Part shown: positions 17,863 through 26,826 of the stretch, one piece after another
Layout of the letters: every line of letters starts with the position of its first letter
How positions within the stretch are numbered: the first letter of the stretch is position 1
Assembly (NCBI GenBank): GCA_014874455.1
Contig: JADBJL010000061.1
Span: 1 to 40,811, forward strand
Origin: Thermomicrobiaceae bacterium
GTDB taxonomy: Bacteria > Chloroflexota > Chloroflexia > Thermomicrobiales > Thermomicrobiaceae
Direction: 5' to 3'
Length of the DNA stretch: 40,811 nucleotides
Program-made: the position numbers and the translations under genes
The notes under the pieces: generated by a model
Databases searched by the model: none
Told to the model about the DNA's origin: nothing
The model's input: only the letters and a program-made list of their open reading frames with translations

Positions 17863-18674
17863 CGAGCCGTCGTGACCTGACCGAGCGCGCTGGCGGCACC
17901 CGGCCGCTGGCCGGCCGGCGAGTGCTGGTGACTCGCGCCCGGGCCCAGGCTGAGGAACTGGTGACGCGGCTGCGTGCTCTGGGCGCCGAGCCGGTGCTCT
18001 GCCCGGTCATCGAGATCGTGCCGCCGGAGGATACCGGCCCGCTCGACCGCGCCATTCGAGACCTCGAACAGTACCATTGGCTCGTCTTTACCAGCGTTAA
18101 CGGCGTCGAGGCGTTCTTTCGCCGGCTCCGCGATCTGGGCCGTGAGCCGGCGGCGCTCGGCGGACTCCGCATCGCCGCCATCGGCCCGGCCACGGCCGCT
18201 CGGCTCAGCGAGTACGGCTGTTCGGCAACGCTAGTTCCCACCGAGTTCGTTGCCGAGGCGGTCGCTGCCGCCCTGGTCGAACGCGGTATCGCTGGGCTAC
18301 GCGTCCTGTTGCCGCGCGCCAGCGAGGCGCGAGCGGTTTTGCCGGACAGCTTGCGTGCGGCCGGTGCCGTGGTGGACGTGGTACCGGCGTACCGGACAGT
18401 GCTCGTGGAGCCGCCGCGGGAAGCGCTCGAGCGGCTGCGGGCCAGCGAGATCGATGTCGTGCTGTTGACGAGCGGTTCGACAGCCCGTGCCCTGGCCGCA
18501 GCGCTCCGCGGTGATCTCAGCCTTCTGCAGCGCCCGCTCGTCGCCTGTATCGGGCCGGTCACCGCGGCTGCCGCTCGCGAGGTGGGGATCCGGGTCGACC
18601 TGGTCGCGGACGAGTACTCGATTCCCGGATTGCTACGGACGGTCGTAGAGGCCCTGGAGGAGAGGATGCGATGA
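17859..18674 (+). CDS. hemD: Uroporphyrinogen-III synthase
   Basis: A 271-aa enzyme that closes and isomerises hydroxymethylbilane to uroporphyrinogen III. The family diverges strongly, but the expected landmarks are present: [34 protein letters not shown] at the start, [55 protein letters not shown] and [16 protein letters not shown]. It starts with GTG overlapping the hemC stop by four bases and ends overlapping the hemB ATG by four, so it is translationally coupled on both sides. Confidence 0.95.
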
Positions 18675-19696
18675 ACCCATCAGAGCTGAGCTTCCGACGC
18701 TTCCGCCGCCTGCGCCGAACCGAGGGACTGCGCCGGCTGGTACGGGAGACGCGGCTTTCGGTCGATGACCTGATCTACCCCCTCTTCATCACGCACGGGA
18801 CGGGGGTGCGCCGTGAAGTCTCGTCGATGCCCGGCGTCTACCAGCTCAGCGTCGACCAGCTTGCGGCCGAGGTCGAGGAGCTGCGGGGCCTCGGGATCGG
18901 CGCGGTGCTGGTGTTCGGTATTCCGGAGCACAAGGACGAGCTGGCTTCTGGAGCCTACGACGAGCACGGGGTGGTTCAGCAGGCCGTCCGGGCGATCAAG
19001 CGCGCCGACCCGTCGATGGTCGTCGTCACCGATGTCTGCAACTGCGAGTACACCTCGCACGGCCACTGCGGCGTGCTGGTCGGGGACGAGATCGCGAACG
19101 ATCCGACGCTGGAGCTGCTGGCCCGCACGGCGGTCTCGCACGCAGCGGCCGGCGCTGACATGGTGGCGCCCTCCGACATGATGGACGGCAGGGTACTGGC
19201 GATCCGCCGGGCACTGGATGAGGCGGGTTTCACCGAGACACCGATCCTCTCCTACGCGGCCAAATTCGCTTCGGCCTTCTACGGGCCCTTCCGCGACGCC
19301 GCCGAGTCGGCCCCCGCTTTCGGCGACCGTCGCTCGCACCAGATGGATCCTGGCAACCGTCGCGAGGCGCTGCGCGAAATCGAGACCGACCTCGAGGAGG
19401 GTGCCGATGCCATCATCGTCAAGCCGGCGCTGGCCTACCTGGATGTGGTCGCCCTCGCGCGCGAGCGCTTCGACGTGCCGATCGCGGCTTACAACGTGAG
19501 CGGGGAGTACGCCATGGTCAAGGCAGCGGCCCGCAACGGCTGGATCGACGAGCGCCGCGTGGTGCTCGAGGTCTTGACCGGCATCCGCCGGGCTGGCGCC
19601 AACATGGTCATCACCTACCACGCCAAGGACGTGGCGCGCTGGCTTCGCGAGGGGGCCGGTGCCGAGGTGAGAGCGGTACTCGCCGCTGAGCGTTGA
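18671..19696 (+). CDS. hemB: Delta-aminolevulinic acid dehydratase (porphobilinogen synthase)
   Basis: A 341-aa enzyme condensing two 5-aminolevulinate molecules to porphobilinogen. The catalytic zinc site is present as Cys123, Cys125 and Cys133 in [14 protein letters not shown], so it is a zinc-type enzyme. The two active-site lysines are Lys198 (LSYAAKFAS) and Lys251 ([11 protein letters not shown]). Other conserved segments are [11 protein letters not shown] and YNVSGEYAM. Its ATG overlaps the hemD stop (ATGA). Confidence 0.98.
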
Positions 19697-19725
19697 GGGC
19701 AGGAACCATCGAGAGGAGGCGACGG

Positions 19726-21018
19726 GTGACGCTGGCACGCTCGGAGCAGGCCTGGCGAGTGGCCCAGCAGTACCTTGCCGGTGGCGTCAACAGCCCGGTG
19801 CGAGCATTCCGCGCTGTCGGAGGTACGCCGCCCTTCATCGAGCGGGGGGCAGGCGCCCGGCTCTACGACCTCGACGGCAACGAGTACATCGACTACGTCT
19901 GCTCCTGGGGCGCGCTGATCGCCGGGCATGCCCACCCCGACGTGGTCGAGCGGCTGCGGCGGGCCGTCGAGCGCGGCACCAGCTATGGCGCTCCTACCGA
20001 ACTGGAGACCGCTCTGGCCCGGCGAGTCGTCGAACTCTTCCCCTCGATCGAGCTGGTGCGCTTCGTGAACTCAGGCACCGAGGCCACCATGAGCGCGATC
20101 CGGCTGGCGCGCGCGGCGACCGGGCGAGCGAAGATCGTCAAGTTCACCGGCTGCTACCACGGGCACGCGGACGCGCTGCTGGCTACTGCCGGATCAGGCC
20201 TGTTGACGCTCGGCATACCGAGTAGCCCCGGCGTGACGCCGGGTACCGCGGCCGACACGGTCTCGCTGCCGTACAACCGGCTCGATGCGGTAGAGGAAGT
20301 GTTCTCCCAGGCCGGCGAAGAGATCGCGGCGGTGATCGTGGAGCCGGTGGCCGGCAACATGGGCGTAGTGCCGCCGGAGGAGGGCTTCCTCCAGGGGCTG
20401 CGCGAGGTTACCCACCGGTACGGAGCGCTCCTCATCTTGGACGAAGTGATCACCGGCTTCCGGCTGGCTCCCGGTGGAGCGCAGGAGCTCTACGGCGTGC
20501 AGCCCGATCTCACCTGCCTGGGCAAGATCGTCGGCGGCGGTCTTCCGGTCGGCGCCTACGGCGGGCGCCGCGAGCTGATGGAGCTGCTGGCCCCCGTCGG
20601 CCCGGTCTACCAGGCCGGCACGCTCTCCGGGAACCCGCTGGCGATGGAGGCAGGCCTTGCCACGCTGGAGCTACTGCGCCGCCCAGGTGCCTACGAGCGC
20701 CTGGAGGCGCTGAGCGCGCGCCTGGCCGGCGGTCTACAGCGGGCTGCGGAAGATGCGGGGGTTCCGGTAACGCTCAACCGGGTCGGTTCGATGATGACCG
20801 CCTTCTTCACGGACGGGCCGGTCACGAGCTATGAGACCGCCACCCGCGCCGACACAGCGCGCTATGCCCACTTTCACCAGACCATGTTGCGCCGCGGCGT
20901 CTACCTCGCACCGTCTCAGTTCGAAGCGATGTTCCTCTCGCTGGCCCATGGGGAGGACGAGATCGACCGGACGCTCGAGGCTGCCGCGGAGGCGCTGCGG
21001 GAAGTCGCGTCGTCTTGA
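19726..21018 (+). CDS. hemL: Glutamate-1-semialdehyde 2,1-aminomutase
   Basis: A 430-aa PLP enzyme making 5-aminolevulinate from glutamate-1-semialdehyde. The PLP lysine is Lys267 in [16 protein letters not shown]. Also present are [49 protein letters not shown] and [15 protein letters not shown] at 19726 is chosen because AGGAGG lies 6 bp upstream and it matches the family's usual start; a TTG at 19693 in the same frame overlaps the hemB stop but has no better support. Confidence 0.97.
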
Positions 21019-21039
21019 CGATGTTCAAGGTGAGTGAGG

Positions 21040-22290
21040 ATGCCGGTCGAGCTGCTCAGCATCACCCATCGCACCGCGCCGGTCGGAGTCCGGGAACGGC
21101 TGGCGCTGGACGCAGCCGCGCGGGCTGCGCTGATGACCCGGGTGGCAAGTCTCGCGGGTGAGGCAGTTGCGCTGTGCACCTGCAACCGCACCGAGCTCTA
21201 CTGGCCCGCGCGGCCCGCTGTGACCCATGGTGATGTCCTGGCGCTGCTGGCTGCGGCCGCCGGGCTCGATCCCGGATCGCTGGAGCCTCACATGATCCGG
21301 CTCCGGGGAGCGGAGGCGGCGCGCCACCTCTTCCGGGTCGCGGCCGGGCTGGAGTCGCAAGTCCTCGGGGAGCCGCAGATCCTCGGCCAGGTGCGAGATG
21401 CGGCCGAGGAGGCGCGGGCGTTGAGGACGGTCGGCCCGGTGCTCGATCGGCTCCTTGCCCTGGCTGTGGTGACAGGCAAGCGAGCACGAGCTGAAACCGA
21501 GATCAGCCGTGGAGCAGGCTCGATCGGTCAGGCGGCCGTGCAGCTTGCCCGCTCGCTCCTGGGCGAACTGGCGGGAAAGCGGGCGCTGGTAATCGGCGCT
21601 GGCGAGATGGGCCGGCTGGTCGCGGCCAGCCTGGCCTCCTACCGGCCAGGCTGGCTCGGGATCGCCAACCGTACCGGCGAGCGAGCGCTCGCGGTTGCGC
21701 GCAAGCTGGAGGTGCAGCCGGTTGCCTGGGAGGCGCTGGACGAGACGCTTGCCAGCGTCGACCTCGCCATCGTCACGACTGGCGCTCCGGAACCGGTGCT
21801 GACCAAGCGCCGGCTCGAGCCGGTGGTTGCCGCTCGGCGCGGCCGGCAGCTTCTGCTCATCGACGTGGCTGTACCGCGTAACGTGGAGCCGGGGGTCGCC
21901 GAGTTGCCCGGTGTCGATCTCCGCGACATCGATGCTCTGCAGGAGCTGTGCGCAGCGGGGCGGCGCAGCCGGGAGGACGCGATCCCTCAGGTCGAGGCGA
22001 TCGTCGAAGAGCAGGTACGGGAGTTCCTGGAGTGGGAGCGTGCGCGCTCGGTGGCTTCGCTCATCCGCCAGTTGCGGGAGCAGGTCGAAGCGATCCGCGA
22101 GGCGGAGACGGCTCGCGCGCTGCGGCGGCTCACCCACCTGAGCGAGCGAGATCGGCAAGTGGTATTGGCGCTCAGCCACGGTATCGCGAACAAGCTACTC
22201 CACCGGCCGATCACGCGCCTGCGGGAGCGAGGCGCGGAGGGCCAGCACCTGGCGACGCTGGCTGACCTCTTCGGCCTGACCGAAGAGTAA
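21040..22290 (+). CDS. hemA: Glutamyl-tRNA reductase
   Basis: A 416-aa NADPH-dependent enzyme that reduces glutamyl-tRNA to glutamate-1-semialdehyde, the first committed step of the C5 heme route. The N-terminal catalytic domain has SITHRTAPVGVRERL and the nucleophile Cys48 in LCTCNRTELY. Then come VAAGLESQVLGEPQILGQV, the NADPH-binding VIGAGEMGRLVAASL, the LLIDVAVPRNVEPG motif and the C-terminal dimerisation helices (ANKLLHRPITRLRE). ATG at 21040 follows AAGGTGAG; GTG at 21034 is in frame. hemA comes last here, whereas many bacteria place it first. Confidence 0.97.
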   Translation: MPVELLSITHRTAPVGVRERLALDAAARAALMTRVASLAGEAVALCTCNRTELYWPARPAVTHGDVLALLAAAAGLDPGSLEPHMIRLRGAEAARHLFRVAAGLESQVLGEPQILGQVRDAAEEARALRTVGPVLDRLLALAVVTGKRARAETEISRGAGSIGQAAVQLARSLLGELAGKRALVIGAGEMGRLVAASLASYRPGWLGIANRTGERALAVARKLEVQPVAWEALDETLASVDLAIVTTGAPEPVLTKRRLEPVVAARRGRQLLLIDVAVPRNVEPGVAELPGVDLRDIDALQELCAAGRRSREDAIPQVEAIVEEQVREFLEWERARSVASLIRQLREQVEAIREAETARALRRLTHLSERDRQVVLALSHGIANKLLHRPITRLRERGAEGQHLATLADLFGLTEE

Positions 22291-22552: not shown

Positions 22553-24481
22553 ATGACCGATCTGGCGAAGACAAGTAGCGCCGCGGTCTCACTGCGACAG
22601 GCGAGCGAGACGAGAGCGCGCCTGGGCGAGGCCCTTGTCCAGCGCGGGCTGCTCCATCCGGACGAGCTCGAGCGCGCGCTGGAGCTCCAGCGGCGAACGG
22701 GCGACCGGCTGGGGCGTATCCTCATCGCGCTCGGGCTCGTGCGGCGCTGGCAGCTCTACCAGGTTCTGGCTGAACTGTGGGGATATCCGTTTGTCGACCT
22801 GCTACACCAGCCGGTCGACAAGCGCCTGGCCCGGCGGTTCGACCCTGAACTGCTGGTTGCCCGACGCTTCGTCCCGGTGCGCTGGGAAGACGGCGACGTG
22901 CTCGTGGCGACCTCGGAGCCGCCCTCGCCAGCGCTGGCTGAGGCCGTTCGCGCTGTCCTCGGCCCCGTCGAGATCAAGCCCGCGGTGACGACCGATTGGG
23001 ACATCGACTACGCCATCCGGCAGATCTTCCGGGAGGCGCTGCTCGATCGCGCCACGATGGGCCTGTACTACCGCAATCCGAGCGAGAGCGCCCGCACCGT
23101 CTTCACGCGCTGGCAGCTCGGCGCGCTGGTTGCCCTGGGCCTGGGGATCGCCGCTGGCCTGTACCTGGCGACGACAGCGACGCTCATTGCACTCGTCGCG
23201 CTGGTCAACGTCGGCTTCATGGCGAACGTGCTGTTCCGGTTCGTCGTCTCGATGGCGGGAGCACAGTTCGAGCACGTGCAGGCCATCAGTGACGAGGAGG
23301 TGAGAGCGCTCCGCGATGAGGAGCTACCGACGTATACCATTCTGGTTCCCGTCTACCACGAGGCCAACGTGATCGGGGATCTCATCGAAAATCTCCGTCG
23401 CCTGGACTACCCCTCCAGCAAGCTCGAGATCCTGCTCCTGCTCGAGGAAGACGACGAGGAGACGGCCGCGGCCGCACGCGCCGCCCGGCCTCCGGAGACG
23501 GTCACGTTCGTGACCGTGCCGAACGGCGAGCCGAAGACCAAGCCGAAGGCCTGCAATCTGGGCTTGTTCTTCGCCAAAGGCGAGTACCTCGCGATCTACG
23601 ATGCCGAAGACCGCCCGGAGCCCGACCAGCTCAAGAAAGCGGTCGTCGCCTTTCGGAAGGGGCCGCCGGAGCTGGTCTGCGTGCAGGCTGCCCTGAACTA
23701 CTACAACGCGACCGAGAACGTCCTCACCCGGATGTTCACCCTCGAGTATTCGTACTGGTTCGACTACATCTTGCCGGGGTTGGATCACCTGCGGCTTCCC
23801 ATCCCGCTCGGCGGTACGAGCAACCACTTCCGTACCGACCTGCTGCGGCAGCTCGGTGGTTGGGATCCATTCAACGTGACTGAGGACGCTGACCTGGGCC
23901 TGCGTGCGGCTGCGGAGGGGTATCAGGTCGGCGTGATCAACTCGACCACGTACGAGGAGGCGAACAGCCGCTACGGCAACTGGATCCGCCAGCGGTCGCG
24001 GTGGATCAAGGGGTACATGCAGACCTTTCTGGTCCATACCCGCAACCCGGTGAAGCTCGTGCGCAGCAGCGGCTGGCGTAACCTGTTCGGGTTCGTCATG
24101 CTGGTCGGCGGCACGCCGCTGACCTTCCTCTGCGTGCCGGTACTCTGGGCACTGTACTTCGCGTGGCTGCTCGCTCGGTCGCAACTCGGGCAGGCGCTGT
24201 TCCCACCTGCCGTTCTGTATGTCAGCCTGTTCAACTTGCTGATCGGTAACGGGCTGATGATCTACCTCAACATGCTGGCGGTCTTCAAGCGGCGGCTCTA
24301 CTCGCTGATCCCCTTCGCCCTTCTCAACCCGCTGTACTGGATGCTCCACTCGATCGCCGCCTACAGAGCGCTGTGGCAGTTGCTCACACGACCGTTCTAC
24401 TGGGAGAAGACGCTCCATGGCCTCAGCCGTTACGCGACCTCGACAACCGATCCCGTTCAGCCCGGAGAGCCTGCCGCCTGA
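22553..24481 (+). CDS. MshEN-domain glycosyltransferase family 2, membrane-bound (NfrB-like architecture)
   Basis: A 642-aa protein. Residues about 22-80 hold two tandem MshEN-type repeats (LGEALVQRGLLHPDELERAL and RLGRILIALGLVRRWQLYQ) running into GYPFVDL, as in the N-terminus of type II secretion ATPases; in MshE and NfrB such domains bind c-di-GMP. Two membrane helices follow at about 188-235. A processive GT2 domain (260-490) has DAED (350-353), TED (443-445) and QRSRW (480-484). Further membrane spans lie at the C-terminus. It likely polymerises and exports a surface polysaccharide, possibly under c-di-GMP control; product and ligand binding are inference. The next gene overlaps its 3' end by 65 bp. 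The start at ATG 22553 has a weak ribosome site. Confidence 0.87.
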   Translation: MTDLAKTSSAAVSLRQASETRARLGEALVQRGLLHPDELERALELQRRTGDRLGRILIALGLVRRWQLYQVLAELWGYPFVDLLHQPVDKRLARRFDPELLVARRFVPVRWEDGDVLVATSEPPSPALAEAVRAVLGPVEIKPAVTTDWDIDYAIRQIFREALLDRATMGLYYRNPSESARTVFTRWQLGALVALGLGIAAGLYLATTATLIALVALVNVGFMANVLFRFVVSMAGAQFEHVQAISDEEVRALRDEELPTYTILVPVYHEANVIGDLIENLRRLDYPSSKLEILLLLEEDDEETAAAARAARPPETVTFVTVPNGEPKTKPKACNLGLFFAKGEYLAIYDAEDRPEPDQLKKAVVAFRKGPPELVCVQAALNYYNATENVLTRMFTLEYSYWFDYILPGLDHLRLPIPLGGTSNHFRTDLLRQLGGWDPFNVTEDADLGLRAAAEGYQVGVINSTTYEEANSRYGNWIRQRSRWIKGYMQTFLVHTRNPVKLVRSSGWRNLFGFVMLVGGTPLTFLCVPVLWALYFAWLLARSQLGQALFPPAVLYVSLFNLLIGNGLMIYLNMLAVFKRRLYSLIPFALLNPLYWMLHSIAAYRALWQLLTRPFYWEKTLHGLSRYATSTTDPVQPGEPAA

Positions 24482-25940
24482 TGCGTTGCGGCTGGCCGAT
24501 GTGAGCTGGCGCGGCCACCTGCTTCGGGTGGCGCTGTTTAGCCTTCCCTTCGTCGCCCTCGCACTCTATACCGACTGGGTCGGGTTCCTGAGCGATCCAC
24601 ACGCGCTGGTGCTGGCCAAGGCGCTCCTGGCCGCCGACCGGGGACGGCTGGAGGTGATCGGTTTTGTGTACCCTCCTTTACCCTTCCTGCTGGCCACGGT
24701 CTGGCCGAGCGCCTGGACAGTGTCGCTCCTGTGCGGGATATCGGCCGGCGCGACGGCCTGGCTGCTCTGGTACGACCTGCGACGCACGGAGCTCCCGCTG
24801 GTCGTCCAGACGCTGTTGCTCGCCAGCGTGGTTTTGGTGCCGAACGTGCTCTTCCTCGCAACACAGTCGTTGCCGGAGATGCTCGCTCTCCACCTCTTTC
24901 TGGTCGCCTGGCACTATTTCCTGAACTTCGTGCGTAACGGGCACACGTGGAGCGGGTTCACCGCAGGCCTCGTGCTCGGGCTCGCGTTCTTCGCGAGCTT
25001 CTATGCCATCGTCTTCGCGCTCGCGTTCGCGGTCTCTTCACCGATCTACTCGCACCTGCGAGCGGACGGCGAGGATCGGTCTCCTCAGGCGGACATGGCG
25101 AGGATGATGGTTATCGTCTTCCCGGCGCTCTGGTCACTCGCGAGTTGGAGTTACCTCAACTGGGTCTTTACTGGTGACCCGCTCCGCTTTCTGAGCGATC
25201 CGGTAGCGCCTGTCCTGCTCCCGGCGGCCGGAACCGGTTCTGTTGTGGATGCGGCAGTGTGGGGCGCGAGGCAAACGTTGACAGAGTTGCTGCACCAGCC
25301 GCTCTTCCTCGCGGTCGCCGCACTGAACGCGGTGCAGAGGCGACGGCGGATCATCGCCTTTGTCTCGATGCCGCTGATCCTCGTCACGATCCGCGCCGCT
25401 GGCTTCGCGTACGGTGAGCTGCTTGCGTTGGGGACATACAGCCTGGTCGCCCTGGCCGGCATCCCGCGCCGGGTTTCGCTCCTGGGTAGCATCGTGCTGG
25501 TCGTGGTCGCGCTCCTGCAAGTGGTGACGAGCTCGACGCTCACCACCCAGCATCCCTGGCTTATGGACTGGCGGAACGCTGTCACCCTCGGTCAGATCAC
25601 CGTTGAGGCCAGGTCGGAGCGTGAACTCGCAGCCAGGCTGGCGCAGGCTCCACCACGCTCGATCCTTGCCGACGACCGCAGCACATCCCGGGTGATCGCC
25701 CGCGCAGGAACCGCCAGGCCTTTCCTGCTGCCGACCGATGCGGCGTTCGCCTCGGCACTCGATCGGCCGCGGGAGCAGGTGGCCTACCTGCTCGTCGCCA
25801 GCGGAGCGGCCCATCCTGCAGACGAGGTGAGCCGGCGATTCGCCGAGCGTCCGCCCGATGGCTTTCTCCTCGACGGTGCTTCGGCTGGCTATTCACTCTA
25901 CCGGCGTATCGACGCTCCCCCGCTGCTCGGCCAGCCCTGA
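24417..25940 (+). CDS. Polytopic membrane protein, possible glycosyltransferase-C-like, downstream of the GT2
   Basis: A 507-aa protein with about ten hydrophobic spans between residues 35 and 370, then a soluble C-terminal domain of about 130 residues (ITVEARSERELAARLAQAPPRSILADD). The overall form, with an early aspartate in the first loop (YTDWVGFLSDPHALVLAKALL), recalls GT-C/GT39-type mannosyltransferase-like proteins, but I cannot assign a family with confidence. It overlaps the glycosyltransferase gene by 65 bp, so the two are co-expressed and probably act on the same envelope polysaccharide. Confidence 0.75.
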   Translation: MASAVTRPRQPIPFSPESLPPDALRLADVSWRGHLLRVALFSLPFVALALYTDWVGFLSDPHALVLAKALLAADRGRLEVIGFVYPPLPFLLATVWPSAWTVSLLCGISAGATAWLLWYDLRRTELPLVVQTLLLASVVLVPNVLFLATQSLPEMLALHLFLVAWHYFLNFVRNGHTWSGFTAGLVLGLAFFASFYAIVFALAFAVSSPIYSHLRADGEDRSPQADMARMMVIVFPALWSLASWSYLNWVFTGDPLRFLSDPVAPVLLPAAGTGSVVDAAVWGARQTLTELLHQPLFLAVAALNAVQRRRRIIAFVSMPLILVTIRAAGFAYGELLALGTYSLVALAGIPRRVSLLGSIVLVVVALLQVVTSSTLTTQHPWLMDWRNAVTLGQITVEARSERELAARLAQAPPRSILADDRSTSRVIARAGTARPFLLPTDAAFASALDRPREQVAYLLVASGAAHPADEVSRRFAERPPDGFLLDGASAGYSLYRRIDAPPLLGQP

Positions 25941-25989: not shown

Positions 25990-26826
25990 TCACCCCTTAT
26001 AGGTCAGCACCCGGCCCCAGAGGCTGGCGGTACCCCAGATACCCGACCGCAGGCACTCGAGTTGCACGATCTGGCTATGGTCGACGAACAAGTTGACCTC
26101 TGGCCCGTAGTGCTTGATGTACCACTCGAAGACCGGTGGGTCGGCTGCTTCGAACATGACTCGTTCCAGTCCCAGCGCGTTGATGATCTTCGCCACCGCG
26201 TCCGTGCGCCATGCGCGCACGTTCTCGGTGATCCCCTCGGATTCGACCATGATCATCCAGGCGCCAGCATCGAGGTAGCGCCGTGCCTGGGCGATCGCCC
26301 ACTCGACATCGCGCGTCCCTTCGGCCTCGAGCGCTTCGACCGCGCTGGCCCCACCGGCGCCGAACTGGATGCCGACCTCCGGCTTCGGCTTGAGACCTGC
26401 CTTCTGTACCCGCTCGATCAAACGGAGCACGTCGTCCGTCGGCAGCGTGACGAACCCGGTCGAGATCTCGATGATGTCGAACCCGACCGCCCGGCACTCC
26501 TCGACATAGCGGTCGACCGCCTCCGGCCCCTGCACGAGGACGCGCTCGATGAAGCCGCCGGTCGAGACCTGGACGTCGTAGCGGTGGCAGAGCTCGACGA
26601 TCTCGACGAGTCGGTCGCGCGGCATCAGCGCGAACGACCCACCAGCGAACTTGAGGCTATCGACCCAGGCGCCCATCGTCTCCAGGATGTCTTCCAGATA
26701 CCGCTTGCCCATCGGCGAGTAGTAGGGGCCGCGGATTTCGGTGATGCCGCGCGTTCGCGGCTTGGCCCCGCGCTCGTTGAGGCGAATGAACGAGAACGCT
26801 CGTTCGCTGCGCTCGCTAGCTACCAT
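25990..26826 (-). CDS. Phosphosulfolactate synthase family protein (ComA-like)
   Basis: A 278-aa TIM-barrel protein. ComA adds sulfite to phosphoenolpyruvate to give phosphosulfolactate, the first step of coenzyme M synthesis in some archaea; homologues occur in bacteria and plants (HSA32). Matching segments are AFSFIRLNERGAKPRTRGIT, WVDSLKFAGGSFAL, YDVQVSTGGFIERVL, GFDIIEISTGFVTLP, KPEVGIQFGAGG, LDAGAWMIMVESEGI and FEAADPPVFEWYIKHYG. No ComB, ComC or other coenzyme M gene is in the window, so the product may be sulfolactate or something else. ATG at 26826 follows GGAGAG. It converges on the preceding membrane-protein gene with a 49-bp gap. Confidence 0.85.
   Translation of the reverse strand: MVASERSERAFSFIRLNERGAKPRTRGITEIRGPYYSPMGKRYLEDILETMGAWVDSLKFAGGSFALMPRDRLVEIVELCHRYDVQVSTGGFIERVLVQGPEAVDRYVEECRAVGFDIIEISTGFVTLPTDDVLRLIERVQKAGLKPKPEVGIQFGAGGASAVEALEAEGTRDVEWAIAQARRYLDAGAWMIMVESEGITENVRAWRTDAVAKIINALGLERVMFEAADPPVFEWYIKHYGPEVNLFVDHSQIVQLECLRSGIWGTASLWGRVLTYKG

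Follow-up and report, generated by a model that had tools for sequence, protein, structure and literature searches.

In a hot-spring bacterium (Thermomicrobiaceae), two overlapping plus-strand genes probably encode a processive GT2 polysaccharide synthase of XagB/Sfz2 type, embedded in the membrane and gated by c-di-GMP, and a partner of XagC/Sfz3 type with a GT-C fold; we put the probability of this reading at roughly 0.7. The analysed stretch of 40,811 nucleotides is called the window here. According to our proposal, c-di-GMP made by the GGDEF enzymes of the cell would be bound on the cytoplasmic side by the two-motif MshEN domain, as its residues suggest, and binding would free the GT2 active site, in a step modelled on NfrB and BcsA. 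As its TED and QRSRW motifs and its HAS/BcsA-like fold suggest, the GT2 domain would add sugars from a nucleotide sugar and use the protein's own membrane helices as the passage for the chain. Judged from its modelled fold, the partner may work on the outer side of the membrane, where it could transfer a sugar from a lipid carrier or else serve as a structural co-subunit. In many relatives a BcsB-like subunit and a barrel-like protein would join; neither is encoded within the window. New relative to an earlier sequence-only reading is the link to sfz/xag clusters, to GH113 and to GDP-mannose genes.

Gene pair and predicted c-di-GMP-binding domain

The coordinates first given for the pair are right, and the ORF ends confirm the overlap of 65 bp:

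22553-24481 (+): MshEN-GT2 synthase gene, XagB/Sfz2-like; 642 aa, ATG at 22553, stop ends at 24481
24417-25940 (+): GT-C-fold membrane partner gene, XagC/Sfz3-like; 507 aa, ATG at 24417, stop ends at 25940
24417-24481 (+): reading-frame overlap of synthase and partner, 65 bp
22619-22690 (+): c-di-GMP motif I, R23-Q46, with its six ligand positions intact
22706-22777 (+): c-di-GMP motif II, R52-L75, final ligand residue Leu, not Gln
22778-23038 (+): MshEN_C subdomain (Pfam PF05157), residues 76-162

The synthase starts with MshEN (residues 23-162); a pair of probable membrane helices leads to the GT2 domain, in which TED and QRSRW lie, and further probable membrane helices follow. Because Pfam and NCBIfam profiles match, the combination of MshEN and GT2 is not a chance observation. 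The synthase ORF is overlapped by the partner ORF in 54 of 64 cases, an upper bound given that partner ORFs were taken from the first start codon. A scan for promoters found none, and a terminator scan gave three (1.6 expected). The pair adjoins heme genes.

PF05157 matches residues 76-162 (E = 1.5e-16, Pfam), and the NCBIfam profile NF053729 (c-di-GMP_motif) matches residues 23-74 with 61.8 bits (cut-off 38). What had been described as two MshEN repeats is present as two motifs, but these are motifs I and II of one MshEN_N domain, with MshEN_C behind it; the available excerpts of PMC5013675 define the motif as two 24-residue units. In the window protein five residues join the two, and their alignment to V. 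cholerae MshE (PDB 5htl) is ungapped. Of the 12 ligand residues only one differs: Leu75 stands at the position of MshE Gln61, and the 11 that are preserved include both RLG triplets and the six cluster leucines. Loss of the c-di-GMP contact residues, named earlier as the observation that would speak against the idea, is thus confined to one residue of 12 (Q to L75).

Leu75 raises the question if the domain is structural here, its c-di-GMP sensing having been lost. Some relatives do keep the region while most ligand residues are gone, and in XpsE, which does not bind, Q61V is one of several changes (excerpts of PMC5013675). We nevertheless consider such a loss unlikely in the window protein, with its 11 of 12 residues, both RLG triplets and six cluster leucines, and with GGDEF genes in the same genome; a change of Gly11, which abolished binding in MshE (same excerpts), also counts against it. 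Four GGDEF genes are present, three with an RxGGDEF/RxAGDEF-type motif. A relaxed motif fits both halves in only 6 of 80 rows, or in 33 if the last position is ignored; these rows are the window plus 79 relatives, since one relative with a broken GT2 ORF (L044) was dropped from the GT2 alignments. In several lineages a c-di-GMP domain is retained while its ligand residues decay: 1-4 of 12 are left, and most are lost from a preserved region in Microbacteriaceae, two cyanobacteria, Kryptonia and Ignavibacteria.

For the window protein, c-di-GMP gating of a polysaccharide synthase, as originally suggested, is a well supported prediction from sequence and context, with 11 of 12 ligand residues, GGDEF genes in the genome, and BcsB-like and barrel-like neighbours at many related loci.

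Probable synthase and GT-C-fold partner

23108-23266 (+): two long helices between MshEN and GT2, residues 186-238 (AlphaFold model; predicted topology)
23327-24037 (+): GT2 catalytic domain, residues 259-495 (Pfam); fold like HAS, BcsA and PcManGT
23600-23611 (+): DAED, D350-D353, DxD-like site; D350, E352 and D353 invariant in 60 rows
23879-23887 (+): TED, residues 443-445, invariant in 60 rows
23990-24004 (+): QRSRW, residues 480-484, QxxRW motif of processive GT2s; Q480, R481 and W484 invariant in 60 rows
24074-24388 (+): C-terminal helices, residues 508-612, probably membrane (AlphaFold model)
24582-24707 (+): first external loop of the partner, residues 56-97, with RLExxGFxYPPLP (partner alignment)
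25602-25916 (+): soluble C-terminal tail of the partner, residues 396-500, with D419-D420 (model; alignment)

The GT2 profiles PF13641/PF13632 match within residues 259-540 (Pfam). With the AlphaFold model (pLDDT 91.4), Foldseek matched hyaluronan synthase, BcsA, PcManGT and chitin synthase. The DxD-like, TED and QxxRW motifs hold up, their key residues being invariant in the alignment of 60 rows, selected from the homologues at hand and without L044. TED, QxxRW, flanking helices and the HAS/BcsA-like fold together mark a processive GT2. Helices 186-238, if they are a membrane pair, would leave both MshEN and GT2 cytoplasmic.

The partner model (pLDDT 91.0) has a GT-C membrane fold, with Z-scores of 18.6 to Pmt4 (329 residues, 4.8 A) and 17.8 to ArnT (409 residues, 4.8 A). 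It displays the multiple membrane spans and soluble C-terminal tail expected from the sequence. The label "unknown family" survives in so far as the one Pfam match, to PMT_2, lay below threshold (E = 0.0064). A phmmer search against PDB gave no match. No sequence link to E. coli ArnT emerged from hhalign with the partner alignment (54 rows, selected from the homologues at hand), and the GT-C assignment is therefore one of fold.

GT-C enzymes usually carry their catalytic acid early in the first external loop. At the corresponding position (residues 59-62), no more than 33 of 54 partner rows have an acidic residue. Position 79 is acidic in 37 of the 54; D420 occurs in 38, with a gap there in 13. 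Because the usual acid is poorly conserved, transferase activity of the modelled partner is uncertain, and the earlier suggestion of a second transferase fits at the level of the fold. The other suggestion, that the partner is the polymer exporter, would agree with its integral membrane nature, its conservation next to the synthase and the lack of a conserved canonical acid. Against it stand the GT-C fold at high model confidence and the channel that BcsA and HAS, synthases with the same GT2 fold, form for themselves; an exporter is very unlikely.

A further possibility is that the GT2 protein is no polymerase: it would make a polyprenyl-phosphate sugar, which the GT-C partner would move to an outside acceptor, similar to ArnC and ArnT. 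Pairing of GT2 and GT-C is known, arnC and arnT (GT2 and GT-C, respectively) lie in one E. coli cluster, and the partner has the GT-C fold of that pairing. This division of labour is improbable, however, given invariant TED and QxxRW, polymer synthases leading the fold matches, and BcsB-like and barrel-like genes recurring in the operons.

Gene neighbourhoods and polymer

The pair is widespread, with relatives in many bacterial phyla; its distribution is patchy (9/21 family genomes). Among 80 relatives (46-96% identity; L001 left out as a duplicate of the window), the partner lies directly downstream in 62, so that the pair is conserved. Identities of GT2 and partner correlate (Spearman 0.84; 59 loci; 0/500 permutations). 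A BcsB-like gene stands beside 44/80 relatives, a lower bound, with fewer than 1,500 bases upstream at six loci. In three Thermoflexus loci response-regulator-GGDEF genes lie directly upstream of BcsB. Locus L089, on the Geobacillus stearothermophilus plasmid CP128455, is an operon of four genes.

A barrel-like gene is found in 22/80 loci, with none in 19 Chloroflexota and 23 Actinomycetota loci (grouped by record title). This c3 family (A7, 20 of 22) matched neither PDB sequences nor Pfam; we read it as a putative barrel from its signal-like start, its pattern and its aromatic C-terminal end. In L073 and L102, the GH113 and barrel-like genes are separated by a phosphodiesterase/sulfatase-family gene on the minus strand (315-323 aa).

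No BcsB-like gene lies beside the pair in the window, and none was found elsewhere in its genome. This absence is not firm, because some members of the family pass the cut-off of the Pfam model by a narrow margin (L024 with 23.7 bits).

Regarding the polymer, a ManC-like cluster occurs in 9/80 loci, and a ManC-like gene also on a Geobacillus plasmid. ManC-type domains were found in 5/109 operon ORFs (108 of 126, with 18 from L009, L010, L012 and L051 omitted, plus one from L089) vs 2/100 other ORFs (100 of 244, at least 200 aa). The control is not clean, because both hits may well be the cluster c4 members of L079 and L083, which adjoin the pair on the opposite strand. Genes of the mannanase family GH113 are present in 3/80 loci and in 6/6 clusters of one further class, itself reached through the GH113-bearing L073; both conserved Glu residues are invariant in 9/9. 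Scans scoring few candidates per genome gave GH113 in 4/16 genomes, two of them known beforehand, and none in the genome of the window. Cluster c24 (four loci), tried as a distant GH113, was not supported. No activity on mannans was seen for any of the seven soluble clade 5 GH113 enzymes, nor for four others (PMC9032380).

We put a glucan or amino-sugar polymer instead of a mannan at even odds: CelA and PgaC give the top NCBIfam scores for the GT2 part, both far under cut-off, and the genome has no GH113 match, while ManC-like and GH113 genes recur among relatives. A mannose-based polymer at the family level is a tentative suggestion that falls somewhat short of an even chance. For the window pair, whose genome has a ManC-type gene (PF22640), a mannan-like polymer is possible. 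It is doubtful that the widespread XagB/Sfz2 family makes beta-mannan-type polymers under c-di-GMP control and with a GT-C-fold co-subunit; if it did, one machine would account for the organic matrix of iron-oxidiser twisted stalks, for the Xanthomonas biofilm that is sensitive to mannanase and for a matrix polymer of Thermomicrobiaceae.

Comparison with known systems

NfrB of E. coli binds c-di-GMP, and residues of its GT and MshEN parts matter for phage N4 infection (available parts of PMC8669469). The domain order is indeed reversed, since nfrB of E. coli K-12 has GT2 at 73-489 and then MshEN at 490-601, whereas MshEN comes first in the window protein; the GT2 domains share 23% identity. 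The neighbour of nfrB is the outer-membrane protein gene nfrA, with no GT-C gene among the nearby features shown. BcsA-BcsB is similar in GT2 fold and motifs and in the BcsB-like gene beside many relatives. BcsA, however, has a C-terminal PilZ, whereas the window synthase has N-terminal MshEN and no PilZ match up to E = 1 (Pfam); the GT-C-fold partner and the failure to find BcsB in the genome are further differences.

XagABCD of Xanthomonas, named as relatives of the sfb/sfz genes (excerpts of Kato et al.), have been tied to biofilm polysaccharide (excerpts of PMC3609779, PMC8042644 and PMC3633832); one review mentions dispersal of the biofilm by the beta-1,4-mannanase ManA (excerpts of PMC8042644). 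This likeness is drawn from published gene descriptions.

The candidate twisted-stalk clusters of iron-oxidising bacteria, Sfz1-6/Sfb1-4, are called xag-like (available parts of PMC8250860 and PMC4643136). According to the accessible text of PMC8250860, Sfz2 consists of an N-terminal IPR007831 domain, called EpsE-like T2SS and read as a secretion part, plus GT2; sfz3 (1,499-1,535 bp) is listed without function; Sfz1 is BcsB-like, Sfz4 a glycosidase of 323-345 aa, Sfz6 contains CotH, and an ATP-ADP antiporter lies nearby. The gene order of the relatives' clusters matches this published sfz/xag cluster, and all six loci L102-L107 are sfz-like, with BcsB, MshEN-GT2, GT-C, GH113, barrel-like and CotH in order. 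Their GT-C partners have 494-514 aa, against the printed sfz3 lengths. Sizes fit less for CotH (583-657 aa here, 3,311-7,352 bp in the sfz text available) and for the barrel-like ORFs (275-319 aa against 929-983 bp). The phosphodiesterase/sulfatase-family gene was tried as sfz5 and fits in size, but the text available gives sfz5 as without known domain; for this reason the barrel-like gene is, tentatively, the likelier sfz5. Also in that text, Sfz4 is assigned to family 10, as opposed to GH113 in the clusters here, and the c-di-GMP sites of sfz proteins are RxxD/RxxxR motifs, not the N-terminal domain (PMC8250860).

The window, in Chloroflexota, has sfz2-sfz3 equivalents only, beside heme genes and with no BcsB-like neighbour. 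An MshEN-type domain with GT2 and a next gene of ~500 aa liken the pair to Sfz2/Sfz3 and XagB/XagC by domains, size and order only. The comparison offers a molecular reading for genes printed only as candidates or unknowns, in which sfz2 would be an MshEN-gated synthase, sfz3 a GT-C-fold protein and sfz4 GH113-like; sfz5 as barrel-like is less sure than these. It also names a testable c-di-GMP switch in twisted-stalk formation, with GDP-mannose as suggested donor and mannanase as suggested probe.

Gene pair and c-di-GMP motif

The 65-bp overlap proposed for the two genes was borne out by the ORF coordinates:

22553-24481, + strand: first gene, MshEN-GT2 synthase (protein 1), 642 aa
24417-25940, + strand: second gene, partner membrane protein, 507 aa

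In protein 1, an MshE-type c-di-GMP motif (NCBIfam NF053729, above cut-off) covers residues 23-74, Pfam MshEN covers residues 76-162, and GT2 matches start at residue 259. Excerpts of PMC5013675 describe two 24-residue motifs of V. cholerae MshE that jointly make one c-di-GMP site. Both "MshEN repeats" of the sequence-only reading are present, but they correspond to these two motifs of a single site. Alignment with MshE (PDB entry 5htl) is free of gaps, and 11 of the 12 contact residues scored (motifs I and II) are retained, the exception being the last Gln of motif II, which is Leu75 here. Such a change is common in the family, since 33 of 80 aligned rows (79 relatives plus the window) have Leu in this column and 15 have Gln. 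Judged by sequence, the synthase module is predicted to be competent for c-di-GMP control. The window genome encodes four GGDEF genes, three of them with an RxGGDEF- or RxAGDEF-type motif, and a response-regulator-GGDEF gene directly precedes BcsB in three loci of Thermoflexus (L019, L021, L025). Against a universal c-di-GMP gate, the contact residues are down to 1-4 of 12 in several lineages: eight loci resembling Microbacteriaceae (one of them titled Acidobacteria), two from cyanobacteria, and those of Ilumatobacter, Kryptonia and Ignavibacteria.

The N-terminal region is retained, with most contact residues gone, in loci L055, L065, L067, L068, L069, L070, L076, L077, L046, L063, L078, L080 and L086. 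The window's own genome encodes a second c-di-GMP-motif protein on contig C114 (L003 1306-2079; DUF4388 and an MshE-type motif above cut-off), and in our reading the adjoining gene resembles a P-loop-bearing chain-length determinant (sub-cut-off in Pfam).

Models of synthase and partner

The AlphaFold model of the synthase (60 sequences, mean pLDDT 91.4) has two long helices between MshEN and GT2; as a membrane pair, these would place both domains in the cytoplasm. Foldseek matched hyaluronan synthases, BcsA, the mannosyltransferase PcManGT and chitin synthases. The DxD-like, TED and QxxRW motifs recognized before hold throughout, with D350, E352, D353, T443-E444-D445, Q480, R481 and W484 invariant in 60 rows.

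The partner had been proposed to be an exporter or a second transferase. Pfam yielded a sub-threshold PMT_2 match alone (E 0.0064), a sequence comparison with PDB chains gave no match, and sequence methods gave no link to ArnT. The partner model (54 sequences, mean pLDDT 91.0) shows a GT-C fold, comparable to Pmt4 (Z 18.6, 322-329 residues, 4.5-4.8 Å) and ArnT (Z 17.8, 409 residues, 4.8 Å). GT-C enzymes usually have a catalytic acid near the start of the first external loop. The best-conserved stretch of this loop in the partner is RLExxGFxYPPLP (P86 in 54/54 rows, Y85 in 44/54, Glu79 in 35/54, or 37/54 with Asp counted). Residue 60 is Asn in the close relatives L010, L012 and L051, and the partners of the six clusters described below (L102-L107) all have an acid near this position. 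The model thus supports a GT-C fold, which makes the partner a candidate transferase at fold level; an acid occurs at residues 59-62 in 33 of 54 rows. Five Gemmatimonadota loci (L028, L030, L034, L038, L040) carry a second GT-C partner homologue upstream of BcsB.

Conservation and genomic neighbourhood

A scan of genome contigs gave at least 578 relatives among at least 589 pattern matches, from which the best 80 (46-96% identical) were retained. The pair is conserved: in 62 of these 80, a partner homologue on the same strand starts at most 1 kb from the end of the synthase. Of the remaining 18, four end no more than 320 bases past the synthase, ten have no partner homologue in the fetched stretch, and four (L036, L045, L063, L078) have one elsewhere in it. 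Across 59 loci, GT2 identity is correlated with partner identity (Spearman 0.84, 0/500 permutations), as plain joint descent would also yield. With phyla taken from record titles, BcsB-like genes (assigned by a Pfam match in three members) adjoin 44/80 best relatives and 0/23 Actinomycetota, while a gene for a barrel-like protein adjoins 22/80, but 0/19 in Chloroflexota and 0/23 in Actinomycetota. The synthase occurs in 9/21 genomes of the family to which the window belongs (8/14 of the more complete ones); in the window's phylum, the partner was matched at E <1e-15 in 21/201 genomes, seven of these at <1e-140.

Directly upstream of the pair are heme-pathway genes (18671-22290: ALAD, class III aminotransferase, glutamyl-tRNA reductase); upstream gene clusters of the window are common to relatives L009, L010, L012 and L051. 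A ComA-family (phosphosulfolactate synthase) gene (25990-26826, - strand) is convergent with the partner gene. The Geobacillus stearothermophilus plasmid CP128455, typed conjugative, encodes consecutively a nucleotidyltransferase, BcsB, an MshEN-GT2 (51% identical) and a GT39-annotated partner (L089 4582-11319). Four loci (L031 9328-10383, L033 9274-10332, L052 9245-10249, L078 367-1527) encode a conserved protein of ~350 aa next to the pair or to a partner homologue; the L031 copy had no Pfam match.

Published clusters and the sugar

Reaching past loci ranked by similarity to the window, we scanned 369 genomes from the class to which L073 (record titled Gammaproteobacteria) belongs and obtained seven matches at E <1e-150, one being L073's own genome. 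All six other clusters (L102-L107) encode BcsB, MshEN-GT2, GT-C partner, GH113, barrel-like protein and CotH in that order, which L073, the entry point, already had, so that the count measures constancy within the class, not frequency in the whole family. An antiporter family gene follows CotH in 5/6, and BcsB of L107 appears as two ORFs. Pfam confirmed GH113 in 6/6, MshEN and GT2 in both synthases scanned, and BcsB, CotH and TLC in single members. A phosphodiesterase/sulfatase-family gene lies between the GH113 and barrel-like genes in L073 (10335-11306, - strand) and L102 (13263-14210, - strand).

The sfz cluster, as described in excerpts of PMC8250860, encodes BcsB-like Sfz1, Sfz2 with an "EpsE-like T2SS" domain (IPR007831) and GT2, sfz3 (1,499-1,535 bp) and sfz5, both printed without function, the glycosidase Sfz4 and, as Sfz6, a CotH protein; genes for an ATP-ADP antiporter and a phosphomannose isomerase lie close by. 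For the first four genes, Kato et al. use the names bcsB, xagB, xagC and xagD (PMC4643136, excerpts). We read IPR007831 of Sfz2 as MshEN, sfz3 as the GT-C-fold partner, sfz4 as a GH113-like enzyme and, tentatively, sfz5 as the barrel-like protein; in the literature searched, we found no paper giving this reading of sfz2-sfz5. Gene order is assumed here from the sfz numbering, and the Mariprofundus and Xanthomonas systems are compared by published descriptions. Partner ORFs of the L073 class (494-514 aa) match the sfz3 size; GH113 ORFs have 334-383 aa (published 323-345) and barrel-like ORFs 275-319 aa (sfz5 309-327), whereas CotH ORFs (583-657 aa) are far shorter than sfz6.

As to the sugar, mannose is favoured by ManC-like genes (a cluster in 9/80 best loci, short members included; TIGR01479 above cut-off in L031, L050 and L075, sub-cut-off for the Geobacillus plasmid gene), by a PF22640 (ManC) match above cut-off in the own genome, and by GH113 (3/80 best loci, besides the class sample), in which two Glu positions, presumably catalytic, are invariant in 9/9 sequences. 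In the same direction point endo-mannanase activity of two Xanthomonas GH113 members and the suggestion that GH113 enzymes encoded near GT2 genes in Bacteroidetes serve to build or remodel biofilm (both PMC9032380, excerpts). According to a Xanthomonas review, ManA mannanase disperses biofilm and xagABC shape its polysaccharide (PMC8042644, excerpts). Against mannose, GH113 was not found in the own genome and occurs in 4/16 genomes scanned (two of the four known beforehand), ManC-type domains differ little between operon ORFs (5/109) and other ORFs (2/100), and the same excerpts of PMC9032380 list all seven soluble clade 5 GH113 enzymes and four of other clades as inactive on the mannans tried. 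We consider a mannan possible for the family, at somewhat less than even odds, and less probable for the window itself.

Taken together, the window encodes a conserved two-gene module, predicted to be a synthase with a GT-C-fold partner and thereby a variant of synthase-dependent exopolysaccharide systems such as NfrB and BcsAB, which stands near the printed candidate genes xagB-xagC and sfz2-sfz3 rather than representing a new kind.
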